Shown here: positions 7,202-62,579 of the stretch, one piece after another
Position numbering within the stretch: position 1 is the first letter of the stretch
Layout of the letters: the number at the start of each line of letters is the position of its first letter
Assembly (NCBI RefSeq): GCF_019891395.1
Contig: NZ_CP078143.1
Location: 3,547,001-3,611,000, forward strand
Source of the DNA: Nitratireductor kimnyeongensis
Lineage (GTDB): Bacteria > Pseudomonadota > Alphaproteobacteria > Rhizobiales > Rhizobiaceae
Direction of reading: 5' to 3'
DNA: 64,000 bases
Position numbers and translations under genes: made by a program
The notes under the pieces: generated by a model
Told to the model about the DNA's origin: nothing
Databases searched by the model: none
The model's input: only the letters and a program-made list of their open reading frames with translations

Positions 7202-9826
7202 TTATTCCTCTTTCTTGGCTGCGGTCTTCTTCTTCGCCGCGGTGGTTTTTTTGGTGGTGGTGGTCGCCTTCTTCGCCGGAGCCTTCTTTTTGGCCGCGGG
7301 CTTCTTCTTGCCGCCCTTGGCCGCCTTGGCAGCGATCAGTTCCAGCGCTTCTTCCAGCGTGACATCCATCGGGTCCTTGCCCTTGGGGAGGGTCGCGTTG
7401 ACCTTGCCATGGTTGACATAAGGACCATAGCGACCGTCGCGTACGGTGATCTTGCCACCTTCGTCGGGATGATCGCCAAGCTCTTTCAAGGCTGCAGGAG
7501 CAGAGCGTCCGCGCCCGCCTTTGGCCTGTTTTTCCGCAATCACGGTGACAGCGCGGTTCAGCCCAATGGAGAACACATCCTCGACGGTTTCCAGATTGGC
7601 ATAGGCGCCGTCATGGAGAAGGAAGGGGCCATAGCGCCCTATGCCGGCGGATATCATCTTGCCGGATTCAGGATGCTGGCCCACATCACGCGGCAGGGAG
7701 AGCAGCGCCAGCGCCTGTTCGATGTCGATGGAATCAGGTGCCCAGCCCTTCGGCAGGCCGGCGCGCTTGGCTTCCTTGCCGTCACCGCGCTGCACATAGG
7801 GGCCGAAACGGCCGGAGCGCAGCGTGATCTCTTCTTCTGTGTGCGGGTCCTTGCCGAGCACCTTGTCGCCGTCGAGACCGTTTTCGCCATTCTCGCCATT
7901 GCCGGCCTCGCCGAACTGGCGGGTAAACCCGCATTCGGGATAGTTGGAGCAGCCGACAAAGGCACCGTGGCGACCGAGCTTCAGGGAGAGCTGACCGGTT
8001 CCGCAACGCGGACATGCACGCGGATCGCTGCCATCTTCCTTGGCGGGGAAAGCGAGCGGAGCGAGCTCCTCGTTCAGCGCATCGAGCACGTTCGTGACGC
8101 GCAGCTCCTTGATCTCGTCCACATGACCGGAGAAATCGTTCCAGAAGTCGCGCAGCACGTCCTTCCAGGAAAGCTGTCCGTCGGAAATCTTGTCGAGCTT
8201 TTCCTCAAGGTCCGCCGTGAAATCATATTCCACATAGCGCTCGAAGAAATTCTCCAGAAATGCGGTGACCAGCCGGCCCTTTGCCTGCGGCATGAGCTTG
8301 CGCTTTTCGATCGTCACATAGTCACGATCCTCAAGCGTTTTGAGCGTCGCTGCATAGGTGGAGGGACGGCCGATGCCCAGCTCTTCCATCTTCTTGATGA
8401 GCGAGGCTTCCGAGTAGCGCGGCGGTGGCTCGGTCGTGTGTTTGGTGGCCTCGATCTTTTCGCGCGTTTGCTCCTCGCCCTCGTGGATTTCAGGCAGGCG
8501 GCGACTTTCCTCGTCCTCGGCGTTTTCGTCCTTGTCGATCGCATAGGCGGCAAGGAAACCCTCGAACCGGATCACCGACCCGACGGCGCGCAGGCCCGCA
8601 TTGCGGGCCTCATTCTCGGCCACGATCTCGACCGTGGTGCGCTCGATCTCGGCTGGCTGCATCTGGCTGGCGATGGCCCGCTTCCAGATCATTTCGTAGA
8701 GACGGGCCTGATCGGCATCGAGATAGCGGCGAACCTGATCGGGCGTGCGGGAGAAATCCGTCGGACGGATTGCCTCATGCGCTTCCTGCGCATTCTTGGC
8801 TTTCACCGAATAAAAACGCGGTTTTTCAGGCAAATAGCGCTCGCCGAATTCCGCGCCGATCGCCTTGCGGGCCTGATCGAGCGCCTCGGGGGCCATCTGA
8901 ACGCCGTCGGTTCGCATATAGGTGATGAGACCCGCCGTCTCGCCGCCAATGTCGATGCCCTCATAAAGCCTCTGCGCCACTTGCATGGTGCGCGACGCCC
9001 CGAAACTGAGACGCGAGGAGGCTGCCTGCTGCAGGGTAGAGGTCGTAAACGGCGGTGCGGGATTGCGCCTGGTGGGCTTTGCCTCCACGGAGACCGCCTT
9101 GAATGAGGCACCATCGAGCATGGCCTTGATGTCGTCGGCCTGCTCCTGGCTCTTGATGTCAAGCTTCTGGAGCTTTTTGCCATCGATCGTGGTCAGTCGC
9201 GCCTCGAAGCTTTCCTGACGCGGGGTGGCGAGCGTGGCGGCGATCTGCCAGTAATCCTCGCGGATAAACCGCTCGATCTCCGCCTCGCGATCACACACCA
9301 GGCGCAGTGCCACCGACTGGACGCGGCCTGCGGAACGAGCGCCCGGCAGTTTGCGCCACAAGACAGGCGAGAGCGTGAAGCCAACCAGATAGTCGAGCGC
9401 GCGGCGGGCAAGATAGGCATCGACCAGCGGAACATCCACCTCACGCGGATGAGAGAGCGCATCAAGCACCGCCTTCTTGGTAATGGCGTTAAAGACAACG
9501 CGCTGCACCGGCTTGTCTTTCAGAACTTTTTTCTGCTTCAGAACTTCCAGCACATGCCAGGAAATCGCCTCACCCTCGCGGTCGGGGTCGGTGGCGAGGA
9601 TCAGACTGTCGGCTTCCTTCACCGCCTTTGCAATGTCGCTCAATCGCTTGGAGGAGGGGCTGTCCACACTCCACGACATGGCGAAATCCTCATCCGGGCG
9701 CACCGAGCCATCCTTTGGAGGAAGGTCGCGCACATGGCCGAACGAGGCCAGAACCTTGTAGTTCGAGCCCAGATATTTGTTGATGGTTTTCGCCTTGGCC
9801 GGCGACTCGACGATAACAAGATCCAT
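7202..9826 (-). CDS. topA: DNA topoisomerase I
   Basis: Type IA topoisomerase that relaxes negative supercoils, 874 residues. The Toprim domain begins at residue 1 (MDLVIVESPAKAKTI), with acidic metal ligands in ATDPDREGEAI. The active-site Tyr lies in the GLITYMRTDG segment. One four-cysteine zinc ribbon is visible (CPRCGTGQ ... CSNYPECGF), followed by repeated KITVRDGRYGPYV-type modules, and the protein ends in a Lys/Ala-rich tail of about 45 residues that probably binds DNA non-specifically. It heads the topA-rnr-DUF983-NUDIX unit. The 284 bp upstream are shared with a small gene reading the other way. Confidence 0.97.
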   Translation of the reverse strand: MDLVIVESPAKAKTINKYLGSNYKVLASFGHVRDLPPKDGSVRPDEDFAMSWSVDSPSSKRLSDIAKAVKEADSLILATDPDREGEAISWHVLEVLKQKKVLKDKPVQRVVFNAITKKAVLDALSHPREVDVPLVDAYLARRALDYLVGFTLSPVLWRKLPGARSAGRVQSVALRLVCDREAEIERFIREDYWQIAATLATPRQESFEARLTTIDGKKLQKLDIKSQEQADDIKAMLDGASFKAVSVEAKPTRRNPAPPFTTSTLQQAASSRLSFGASRTMQVAQRLYEGIDIGGETAGLITYMRTDGVQMAPEALDQARKAIGAEFGERYLPEKPRFYSVKAKNAQEAHEAIRPTDFSRTPDQVRRYLDADQARLYEMIWKRAIASQMQPAEIERTTVEIVAENEARNAGLRAVGSVIRFEGFLAAYAIDKDENAEDEESRRLPEIHEGEEQTREKIEATKHTTEPPPRYSEASLIKKMEELGIGRPSTYAATLKTLEDRDYVTIEKRKLMPQAKGRLVTAFLENFFERYVEYDFTADLEEKLDKISDGQLSWKDVLRDFWNDFSGHVDEIKELRVTNVLDALNEELAPLAFPAKEDGSDPRACPRCGTGQLSLKLGRHGAFVGCSNYPECGFTRQFGEAGNGENGENGLDGDKVLGKDPHTEEEITLRSGRFGPYVQRGDGKEAKRAGLPKGWAPDSIDIEQALALLSLPRDVGQHPESGKMISAGIGRYGPFLLHDGAYANLETVEDVFSIGLNRAVTVIAEKQAKGGRGRSAPAALKELGDHPDEGGKITVRDGRYGPYVNHGKVNATLPKGKDPMDVTLEEALELIAAKAAKGGKKKPAAKKKAPAKKATTTTKKTTAAKKKTAAKKEE

Positions 9827-36393: not shown

Positions 36394-36498
36394 ATTCCAC
36401 ACACGGATCTTGGTTCCGGTCGGGAGACATCCGGCCTGCGCCTCCGGTGGCGGTTTCCGCCTGACGGTCCGTGGAGGTTCAACCGGAAAGGATAACAA
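36394..36498 (+). promoter_or_regulatory. rpsB 5' leader with nested stem-loop
   Basis: The leader contains GGCGG (36449-36453) paired to CCGCC (36457-36461), enclosed by CCTCC (36441-36445) paired to GGAGG (36473-36477), ending shortly before the GGAAAGGA ribosome-binding site. Ribosomal protein S2 leaders are autoregulated in some bacteria, so this could be an S2-binding structure; that is inference. Confidence 0.45.
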
Positions 36499-37293
36499 AT
36501 GGCACTGCCCGATATCAGCATGCGCCAGCTTCTGGAAGCTGGTGTTCACTTTGGTCACCAGACCCACCGCTGGAACCCGAAGATGTCCAACTACATCTTT
36601 GGCGCCCGCAACAATGTTCACATCATCGACCTGAGCCAGACGGTGCCGCTGATGCACCAGGCGCTGAAGGTCGTCTCCGACACTGTCGCCAAAGGCGGCC
36701 GCATCCTTTTCGTTGGCACCAAGCGTCAGGCGTCCGAGATCGTTGCCGATTCGGCCAAGCGTTCGGCACAGTATTATGTGAACGCTCGCTGGCTCGGCGG
36801 CATGCTGACCAACTGGAAGACGATCTCCCACTCGATCCAGCGTCTGCGCAAGCTCGATGAGCTGCTGGCTTCCGACGCTCAGGGCTTCACCAAGAAGGAG
36901 CGTCTGAACCTGGAGCGTGAGCGCGAAAAGCTCGACCGCGCTCTCGGCGGTATCCGCGACATGGGCTCCACGCCGGACCTTATGTTCGTGATCGACACCA
37001 ACAAGGAGGCAATTGCCGTTCAGGAGGCCAAGCGTCTCGGAATTCCGGTGGTTGCGATTGTCGATTCGAACTGCGACCCGGATGTTGTCGATTACCCGAT
37101 TCCGGGCAACGACGACGCTGCACGTGCGCTCGCTCTTTATTGTGACCTCGTAGCCAAGGCGGCCATCGACGGTATCGAGCGCCAGCAGGGCGCCCTCGGC
37201 CTCGATATCGGCGAGGCAGTCGAGGCTCCGGCAGAACCGGCTCTCGACGATGAAGCCGCTACGCCGGCAGCAGAGGAAAACAAGGACGCCTAA
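36499..37293 (+). CDS. rpsB: 30S ribosomal protein S2
   Basis: A 264-residue S2 protein. The opening [28 protein letters not shown] and [20 protein letters not shown], and [10 protein letters not shown] segments are typical. The C-terminus is an acidic Ala/Glu extension of about 35 residues seen in alphaproteobacteria. A GGAAAGGA site precedes the ATG. It is the first gene of the long rpsB-to-lpxB cluster. Confidence 0.98.
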
Positions 37294-58208: not shown

Positions 58209-61133
<2,925 letters not shown>

Positions 61134-61343
61134 GCCCCGTCGCTGCCTGTTTTGAGAAACCGGATGGGCCGGCAGCACGCCGGTCTGTGCATCATGTAGG
61201 AAGCGGGATGCAAATGTCGACCGCCGGGTCGGAATGACACCGTGCCGACAGCGCTTCGCCGCGAGCGCCCCCGTCTCATCAGTTTGAGACGAAAACGCAT
61301 ATCTCCCTTTAACACGTGCTCCCCGGCGTTCCGCAAGGAAAAA

Positions 61344-61358
61344 GAACAAAAAACGAAC
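61344..61358 (-). promoter_or_regulatory. SOS (LexA) box upstream of uvrA
   Basis: GAACAAAAAACGAAC (plus strand) is GAAC-N7-GAAC; on the uvrA strand it reads GTTC-N7-GTTC, the direct-repeat LexA site of alphaproteobacteria. It lies 211 bp before the uvrA start, so a leader of that order is expected. Confidence 0.85.
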
Positions 61359-61628
61359 GCTCTCCTGACAATTTTGCCAGACCCGACCATGCGATCGAGA
61401 AAATGCGCCAGGTTACAGCTGATCACATTTGCCGGCTTGGCAAGGCATTTTCTTGACCGCTACGCCCCGAAGGCGCAGTATATCTCGGTCAGCGCTCGTG
61501 GTTTGAGTGCGCCGTGGAAATGCCTGTGGGCATATCTGCAAGCACGGTCTGCCTGAGCAGGCAAACACCGAGCAATGGCCGAAACGCGAAGAAGGAGCAG
61601 GGTATGACTCCACCTGACCGATCCCTAG
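61359..61628. other. Part of the uvrA-ssb spacer with no gene recognised
   Basis: No frame here has a credible ribosome-binding site and protein-like composition. CTTGACC near 61448 and GTATAT about 19 bases later could be a plus-strand promoter for the structured RNA that follows, although the spacing is long. Confidence 0.35.
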
Positions 61629-61912
61629 GGCTTCGCCTGGATTGCGAAGCCACAGCCGGCTGATCGGTTCAAGACACATTCGACGCTTGTCGCGGAAAAT
61701 GTGTTTCGATACCGATCCATGGTGATTGACGTTTCTGGAGAACGCGATCGCCGGCAGGCATGACAACGCTGGCGGCTGGCTGCCCCCTAAAATCAAAACT
61801 CTTTGAAGACAGGGTTGTAAAAAGCCCTGCCTGATGACACCGGTAAACCATTCCCGGTATGGAGGGTCGGAAGACCCGGAGCCCCGTGCGACCAAAAGGC
61901 GGCGGGGCTTTT
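61629..61912 (+). ncRNA. Candidate structured small RNA ending in a Rho-independent terminator
   Basis: Consecutive inverted repeats line up on the plus strand: GGCTTCGC/GCGAAGCC (61629-61636 with 61644-61651); ACACATT/AATGTGT (61674-61680 with 61698-61704), enclosing CGAC-GCTT-GTCG; CAGGG/CCCTG (61810-61829); ACCGG/CCGGT (61839-61858); GGGTC-GGAA-GACCC (61864-61877). The last is the terminator at 61880-61912. No protein gene ends at this terminator, and the ssb promoter begins after it. The exact 5' end is not known; the dense part is 61800-61912. I do not recognise an Rfam family. It is not tmRNA, RNase P, SRP or 6S RNA as far as I can see. Confidence 0.45.
61880..61912 (+). terminator. Rho-independent terminator in the uvrA-ssb spacer
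   Basis: AGCCCCG (61880-61886) pairs with CGGGGCT (61903-61909), followed by TTTTCTCT from 61909. The 16-base loop is GC/A-rich. It resembles the stem after the glyoxalase-related gene. Confidence 0.8.
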
Positions 61913-61943
61913 CTCTCACGTTGCGTGCGCGGGAGCGGGTGCA

Positions 61944-61973
61944 TTGACGCTGATCATTGAATGTGAACATAAT
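61944..61973 (+). promoter_or_regulatory. ssb promoter TTGACG-N18-CATAAT
   Basis: TTGACG (61944-61949) and CATAAT (61968-61973) are separated by 18 bases. The -10 lies inside the SOS box, so LexA binding would block it. The leader to the ssb start is about 105 nt. Confidence 0.7.
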
Positions 61974-61979
61974 AAGAAC
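61965..61979 (+). promoter_or_regulatory. SOS (LexA) box upstream of ssb
   Basis: GAACATAATAAGAAC is GAAC-N7-GAAC with an AT-rich spacer, the alphaproteobacterial LexA direct repeat. It overlaps the predicted -10 of the ssb promoter. Confidence 0.88.
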
Positions 61980-62084
61980 AAATGAGCTGTGGACGAGAGC
62001 CGGAGCACCGCAGGCGGAGCGCGCGCGGGAGCGCGGCTTTCGATAAAGTGCGCAGCAGATTTCGGACAAGCGTGGAGAAGCGTT

Positions 62085-62579
62085 ATGGCGGGCAGCGTCA
62101 ACAAGGTCATTTTGGTGGGAAATCTGGGTGCAGATCCCGAAATTCGCCGGCTAAATTCCGGCGATCCGGTGGTTAATATGCGCATCGCCACCTCTGAAAC
62201 CTGGCGCGATCGCCAGTCGGGTGAGCGCCGTGAGCGGACCGAGTGGCACAATGTCGTGATTTTCAACGATAATCTTGCCAAGGTGGCCGAGCAATATTTG
62301 AAGAAGGGCGCCAAGGTTTATATCGAGGGCCAGCTTCAGACACGCAAATGGACCGACCAGAACGGTCAGGAACGCTACACGACTGAAGTTGTATTGCAAA
62401 AATTCCGTGGCGAACTGCAGATGCTCGACACGCGCGGGCAGGGCGGCGACAATCAGGTCGGTTATAGCGGCGGTGGCAATCGCGGTTCCGATTTCGGCCA
62501 GTCAGGCCCTGCCGATACCAGCGGTGGCAGTGGCGGAGGCGGCTACTCGCAGAACCTCGACGACGAAATCCCGTTCTGA
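62085..62579 (+). CDS. ssb: Single-stranded DNA-binding protein
   Basis: A 164-residue SSB. The OB fold begins with [34 protein letters not shown] Gly/Ser-rich linker (about 120-155) leads to the acidic tip DDEIPF, which recruits repair and replication partners. GGAGAAG precedes the ATG at 62085; the frame is open 32 codons earlier but that part is not SSB. It is transcribed from an SOS-controlled promoter and followed closely by a secreted-protein gene. Confidence 0.97.

Follow-up and report, generated by a model that had tools for sequence, protein, structure and literature searches.

Here we report that the interval between uvrA and ssb of Nitratireductor kimnyeongensis almost certainly encodes a conserved, free-standing structured RNA, and that the 5' part of this RNA carries a very short reading frame, opening with Met-x-Pro-Pro, that is probably translated and selected for a ribosomal pause. 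The DNA analysed, hereafter the window, is the 64,000-nt stretch at positions 3,547,001-3,611,000 of the forward strand of NZ_CP078143.1 (assembly GCF_019891395.1), in which the RNA region is flanked by the uvrA start codon (61131-61133, minus strand) and the ssb ATG (62085, plus strand). An initial annotation had placed at 61629-61912 an orphan structured RNA that ends in a terminator of its own and does not depend on ssb; its inverted repeats and this terminator are indeed present in the sequence, and among relatives the stems vary by compensating changes. The structured RNA is thus upheld, while its promoter, its mini-ORF, its full length and its wide spread among genomes had been missed. 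The suggested length of 110-280 nt proved too short, as the element begins earlier and extends over about 425 nt from a promoter at 61453-61481.

All parts of the element lie on the plus strand. By sequence, it reads as a free-standing transcription unit, with a sigma70-type promoter (TTGACC-N17-CAGTAT), a start of transcription that we infer near 61488, and a terminator ending at 61911-61912. The promoter was assigned by conservation across loci: the pattern TTGACN-N16-18-NANNNT occurs at -200 to -70 relative to the mini-ORF ATG in 100 of 120 loci, as against 13 of 2400 shuffled sequences. Some 30 nt 5' of its -35 hexamer, the genus alignment reveals a conserved GATCACATTT element (61421-61430), possibly the site of a regulator; GATCACR is present upstream in 69/120 loci. 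A 5' structured region (61487-61580) is outlined by a predicted fold and by blocks conserved in nine genus members, the sequence 61487-61600 folding with z = -2.15 (5 of 200 shuffles equally good). It is followed by the Shine-Dalgarno sequence GAAGGAG (61591-61597) and by the mini-ORF MTPPDRSLGLRLDCEATAG of 19 codons (61604-61663 including the stop), recognized through codon statistics over 120 loci. Hairpin A, formed by GGCTTCGC and GCGAAGCC (61629-61651), is supported by spacing and covariation; it is the first of the repeats and is overlapped by the mini-ORF in the window, its first base lying 25 nt past the A of the ATG.

The remainder of the RNA is a predicted central branched domain (about 61653-61784), variable in length among relatives but with a GGCAGGCATGACAACGCTGG block largely kept within the genus alignment, and a compact 3' domain. 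The latter comprises stem C (61807-61832), from the predicted fold and a match to the core covariance model R2; stem D (ACCGG..CCGGT, 61839-61858), from the fold and the pair count of the core alignment; stem E (GGGTC-GGAA-GACCC, 61864-61877), from the fold and outside that pair count; and the intrinsic terminator (61878-61912), a hairpin at 61878-61911 running into T-rich sequence, from the fold and covariation in relatives. The case for both promoter and terminator rests on conservation, since a generic consensus scan of the window reported neither. Two minus-strand ORFs cross the region (61413-62069 and 61669-61944), and the many indels within them in the genus alignment argue against their being genes.

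Covariation among relatives had been set beforehand as the test of the RNA, and compensating changes were seen both in the core stems and in hairpin A, as expected of a structured non-coding RNA. None of 200 shuffles folded as well as 61629-61920 (z = -5.22), and one of 200 as well as 61790-61920 (z = -3.23). In an alignment of 45 sequences (A2), the core stems make up 25 pairs in five helices that are paired in 95.1% of cells; 21 of the 25 pairs are changed on both sides, and double-change cells number 133 against a shuffled mean of 34.3. These pairs were set by hand from a column scan of the same alignment, which favours structure there, so that the controls matter: sliding the partners by one base brought pairing below 47%. 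RNAalifold, run on the 57 sequences that carry the core pattern, recovered part of the stems. Those 57, less 12, are the 45 of A2, and they stand among 101 family loci, the 44 others including the whole of the window's genus, which is therefore absent from A2. The window RNA is a divergent member, matched by R2 at 61785-61916 with 40.7 bits (E 4.2e-9) compared with 100-117 bits for nine relatives.

Hairpin A was aligned separately in alignment A3 (49 of 51 references, with L092 and L189 dropped), to which other families contribute 15 sequences. It is paired in 84.9% of cells and has 72 double-change cells versus 20.1 in shuffles; all 8 of its pairs show double changes, a measure equalled by 11 of 500 shuffles. 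Within the window's genus, GGGTC/GACCC of stem E is replaced by GGATC/GATCC in genome G009, a compensating change, and the terminator of relatives is a covarying CCCYG..CRGGG hairpin. A terminator-like hairpin was picked in 101/101 family loci, a figure that is partly by construction because the picker favours C-rich arms; the pick for L159 was wrong and was replaced, and certain loci, L031 among them, have a weak T-run. When the core stem was looked for in 15 distant loci, 6 proved to have a stem, which in one of them (L222) lies at the terminator.

By DNA similarity, the region is held by 9 of 10 genomes of the window's genus, whose alignment displays conserved islands rather than uniform similarity. 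The same uvrA-ssb layout recurs in Chelativorans, Aquamicrobium, Brucella pseudogrignonensis, Phyllobacterium and Mesorhizobium. A model of the 5' part, R1, built from 17 sequences (alignment A1, 17 of 18 loci, L062 dropped), matched 103/297 family genomes in 42/109 genera, once per genome except in G007, which has a second, partial match. The RNA is present in 144/146 genomes of the genus of Mesorhizobium amorphae and in 35/35 of a genus that we call Brucella-like because its member L184 shares its mini-peptide with Brucella pseudogrignonensis (L057). In one Rhizobium locus (L098) the 271-nt uvrA-ssb gap has no mini-ORF pattern, and at least this Rhizobium seems to be without the RNA.

Across the order, R1 matched 48/347 genomes at E up to 0.01 and R2 matched 31/347, many of the matches being weak in both cases; five genomes outside the family are matched by both models, the two matches being adjacent in G503 and G700 but separate in G596, G608 and G631. 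The mini-ORF start is seen at 15 of 16 order-level places examined. A further model, R3, matched 42/117 genomes of another genus, which we take to be Bradyrhizobium, in a patchy manner, and 15/337 genomes across the class, its own genome included. Of the 14 class-level matches other than its own, 8 were examined and 5 have the mini-ORF start (L233, L234, L235, L236 and L238, with L235 at a contig end). Second R3 matches in four genomes of one genus (G631, G1160, G1204 and G1232) may be second copies or chance. Several candidates were rejected as members: L229 and L244 resemble protein-coding DNA, L240 has the ATG and CCNCC without such a hairpin, and L237 and L239 lack the mini-ORF pattern at the match. 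An RNA with this presence in two genera, with relatives in other orders and absent from Rfam 15, would represent a large gap in a well-studied group.

The mini-ORF bears the signature expected of codon-level selection for Pro-Pro-x. In 120 distinct loci (L031, the same place as L130, was left out here and is still counted within the 101 family loci), x-Pro-Pro follows the ATG in 120/120 and an SD-like 4-mer precedes it in every case. The CCNCC invariance is partly by construction, since CCNCC was common to the training sequences of the models and was part of the pattern by which most loci were pinned; the variation at third positions and the choice of residues at codon 5 are not built in by this way of finding loci. 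In the Pro codons 3 and 4, positions 1 and 2 are invariant and third positions vary (A in 99 and G in 21; G in 75, T in 40, C in 4 and A in 1). Codon 5 is D in 100 loci, G in 9, E in 4, N in 3, K in 3 and Q in 1, so that it is Asp or Glu in 104/120 and a hydrophobic or aromatic residue in 0/120. The set {D,E,G,N,P,W} accounts for codon 5 in 116/120 loci, and for codons 6 to 10 in 7, 41, 37, 53 and 22 of 120. Constraints on codons and on structure overlap, as hairpin A overlaps the ORF in many loci.

This choice of residues parallels the pausing rules of Escherichia coli lacking EF-P, as given in the portions of PMC4140641 drawn on here: an acidic residue after Pro-Pro stalls the ribosome regardless of the preceding residue, a hydrophobic or aromatic one does not, a basic one gave a pause only when Pro-Pro was preceded by an acidic residue, an amide one can fail to do so when a hydroxyl residue precedes, and pausing at PPG and PPP is variable. 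By these rules a pause would be doubtful in 7/120 loci (MTPPN in three, MTPPQ, MTPPK, MNPPK and MKPPK), and the variable motif PPG occurs in 9/120.

The main rival to the explanation that we prefer is that CCNCC is kept as RNA, either as an anti-Shine-Dalgarno-like seed for mRNAs or as a mask of the element's own Shine-Dalgarno sequence. Such a role would suit the C-rich ACTCCACC and the several predicted folds that pair the SD region with CTCC or CCACC, and yet it does not account for Pro codons that vary at their third positions around invariant first and second ones, for a codon 5 that switches among D, G, E and N, or for an ATG and SD kept in 120/120 loci. Of the 27 loci whose codon 2 ends in C rather than T, 25 retain GGAG or GGAGG as their SD, so no compensating change is seen. 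On this evidence we regard a role at the RNA level as rather unlikely.

The position of hairpin A is consistent with a ribosome paused on the mini-ORF. It starts 24-26 nt after the A of the ATG in 107/119 loci, compared with 201/2380 shuffles (L235 is too short to be counted). Counted from the first base of the codon in its P site, a bacterial ribosome extends about 15-17 nt downstream; if that codon is Pro4, at offset 9, the front edge would lie at offset 24-26, so that a ribosome halted at Pro-Pro-x would come to rest just before hairpin A.

The best explanation, in which our confidence is evenly balanced, is a structured sRNA that holds a ribosome in place close to its 5' end and acts in trans through its 3' domain. 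A ribosome would start on the RNA, make Met-x-Pro-Pro and pause with Pro4 in the P site and the fifth codon in the A site, so that its leading edge would reach the base of hairpin A. Parked there, it would guard the 5' part of the RNA and leave hairpin A folded, and the length of the peptide and its sequence after the fifth residue would be immaterial. The pause may be short when EF-P is present. Action in trans by stems C to E on a target is plausible, a step that we put forward by inference. If the pause is real, selection would have shaped a free-standing RNA for the stalling of a ribosome and not for a peptide product or for control of the next gene; we know of no earlier case.

More tentatively, the RNA could be a housekeeping-type RNA of many Alphaproteobacteria that holds a ribosome at Met-x-Pro-Pro by means of a strong start site and a hairpin placed nearly to the nucleotide, its 3' domain acting on or from the ribosome as a reporter of elongation stress or of EF-P activity. 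We know of no other RNA built in this way. This proposal overlaps with the parking of a ribosome by a trans-acting sRNA and also with a further alternative, in which the RNA acts on translation itself, sensing EF-P or Pro-Pro pausing or sequestering a ribosome, with no base pairing to a target. The pause motif, the match between hairpin spacing and a paused ribosome, the lack of a constant downstream gene and the mostly single copy are all compatible with that alternative, which we nonetheless consider unlikely.

A dual-function sRNA making a functional micropeptide would equally call for the conserved SD, ATG and first codons, but the product ranges from 5 to 39 residues, has no strictly conserved residue after codon 4 and in L194 ends directly after MSPPD. 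A functional peptide was rejected on the grounds that the tail is not conserved across loci, and the dual-function reading is very unlikely.

The gene neighbourhood of the RNA varies. Divergent uvrA lies upstream in 95/101 family loci and same-strand ssb downstream in 90/101 (one place counted twice), and the gap from terminator to ssb ranges from 130 to 2300 nt. In Mesorhizobium amorphae (L246), where ssb starts about 2.75 kb past the RNA match, two minus-strand frames intervene (L246:1615-2919; one of 96 aa with no Pfam match and one of 314 aa with a Clp protease domain), together with a putative plus-strand frame of 179 aa. In the sequence around 12 of 15 members outside the family, neither divergent uvrA nor same-strand ssb is found: uvrA is retained in L216 and, together with ssb, in L218; ssb alone is present in L224, on the RNA's strand, and in L226, on the opposite one; and the other 11 have neither gene there. 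L224, L226 and L227 each have an ORF of 224-233 aa upstream of the RNA and on its strand, and these ORFs look alike. In the window, ssb has a promoter-like site and an SOS-type box of its own, and, across 93 loci, alternative partners for the two arms of hairpin A are in weak excess (0.53 +/- 0.24 and 0.54 +/- 0.26 score units). An ssb leader, whose mini-ORF and hairpins would form an attenuator deciding read-through into ssb, agrees with the frequent same-strand ssb and the terminator-like hairpin before it, but is extremely improbable given this variable gap, the intervening frames in many loci, the other contexts outside the family and the separate promoter-like site of ssb.

The initial annotation had also suggested a link to the DNA-damage response, which our observations do not support. 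As it had noted, the RNA sits between two SOS-type boxes, at 61344-61358 on the uvrA side and 61965-61979 on the ssb side, which are neighbours rather than parts of the RNA (we take GAAC-N7-GAAC to be the consensus), and no box is placed to drive the RNA, the nearest ending 94 nt before its -35. Among 112 loci having the upstream TTGAC, 58 have a box within the search reach of 250 nt upstream of the ATG; these boxes start 38-102 nt before TTGAC and none touches the promoter hexamers. Membership of the SOS regulon was therefore rejected, with no LexA box overlapping the RNA promoter in the window or in these 58 loci, and the neighbours differ outside the family. Further GAAC-N7-GAAC or GTTC-N7-GTTC boxes occur in the window at 9740, 23889, 24975 and 41598. 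With gap and context variable and box positions off the promoter, the RNA is not accounted for by control of ssb or by SOS control.

The RNA appears to be a structured sRNA of a family not in Rfam 15, with an unusual built-in pause site. A search against Rfam, proposed earlier as a check, matched no Rfam 15 family to it: the sole match in the window at or above cut-off is an rpsB sRNA away from the RNA, the interval 61150-62150 gave three matches at E up to 10, all far under their cut-offs, and there were none in the loci of 12 relatives or in 15 of 16 distant loci. The rpsB match itself (RF01815) lies at 36398-36500 on the plus strand and scores 46.2 bits against a cut-off of 40. For tmRNA, ARAGORN found 0 genes in the window, and neither the region nor its relatives matched alpha_tmRNA or any other family of Rfam. 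Nor is the RNA named in the open-access literature searched; term look-ups within PMC2864571, PMC12772402, PMC4845025, PMC8632094, PMC5596092, PMC5082802, PMC3927594, PMC11109978 and PMC10987492 gave no name for it in the passages they returned. Of the 40 intergenic sRNA candidates MH_s1-40 of Mesorhizobium huakuii, 16 are unannotated in the portions of PMC5596092 consulted, and one of these could be this RNA. By eye, no place of the RNA in the genus with 144/146 genomes fits Table 1 of that paper, whose strain is perhaps absent from our genomes, and its main text has neither uvrA nor ssb.

Several known systems share features with this RNA. Arrest by the ApdP and ApdA uORFs requires a longer nascent chain, whereas only four residues precede the pause predicted here. 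They are otherwise similar in combining a short ORF with a Pro-Pro arrest motif (RAPP-like) in Alphaproteobacteria including Rhizobiales, but, in the parts of PMC10987492 considered, they accompany a secDF gene, while the RNA reported here has no constant following gene. The uORF attenuator of Corynebacterium ilvB likewise joins a Shine-Dalgarno sequence, a mini-ORF, hairpins and a terminator (PMC11109978, in the sections used); the present RNA differs in that the gene following it is not constant, its mini-ORF lacks a series of codons for one biosynthetic amino acid and hairpin A shows no clear alternative pairing.

To our knowledge, no Pro-Pro mini-ORF occurs in the families of trans-acting sRNAs of rhizobia, and the RNA half of rnTrpL/peTrpL has a trans role of its own. 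That leader transcript of Sinorhizobium meliloti, whose products act in trans according to the portions of PMC7298713 consulted, derives from the trp attenuator, whereas our RNA is not seen as the leader of a gene in the loci examined. The trans-acting sRNA families of rhizobia, as presented in the parts of PMC3927594 covered, resemble it in being intergenic and conserved across the order, and differ from it in that it has no Rfam match. Another possible member of the same family is BjsR3, an sRNA of Bradyrhizobium; relatives of its terminator occur in Mesorhizobium and Brucella (PMC5082802, in the passages considered).
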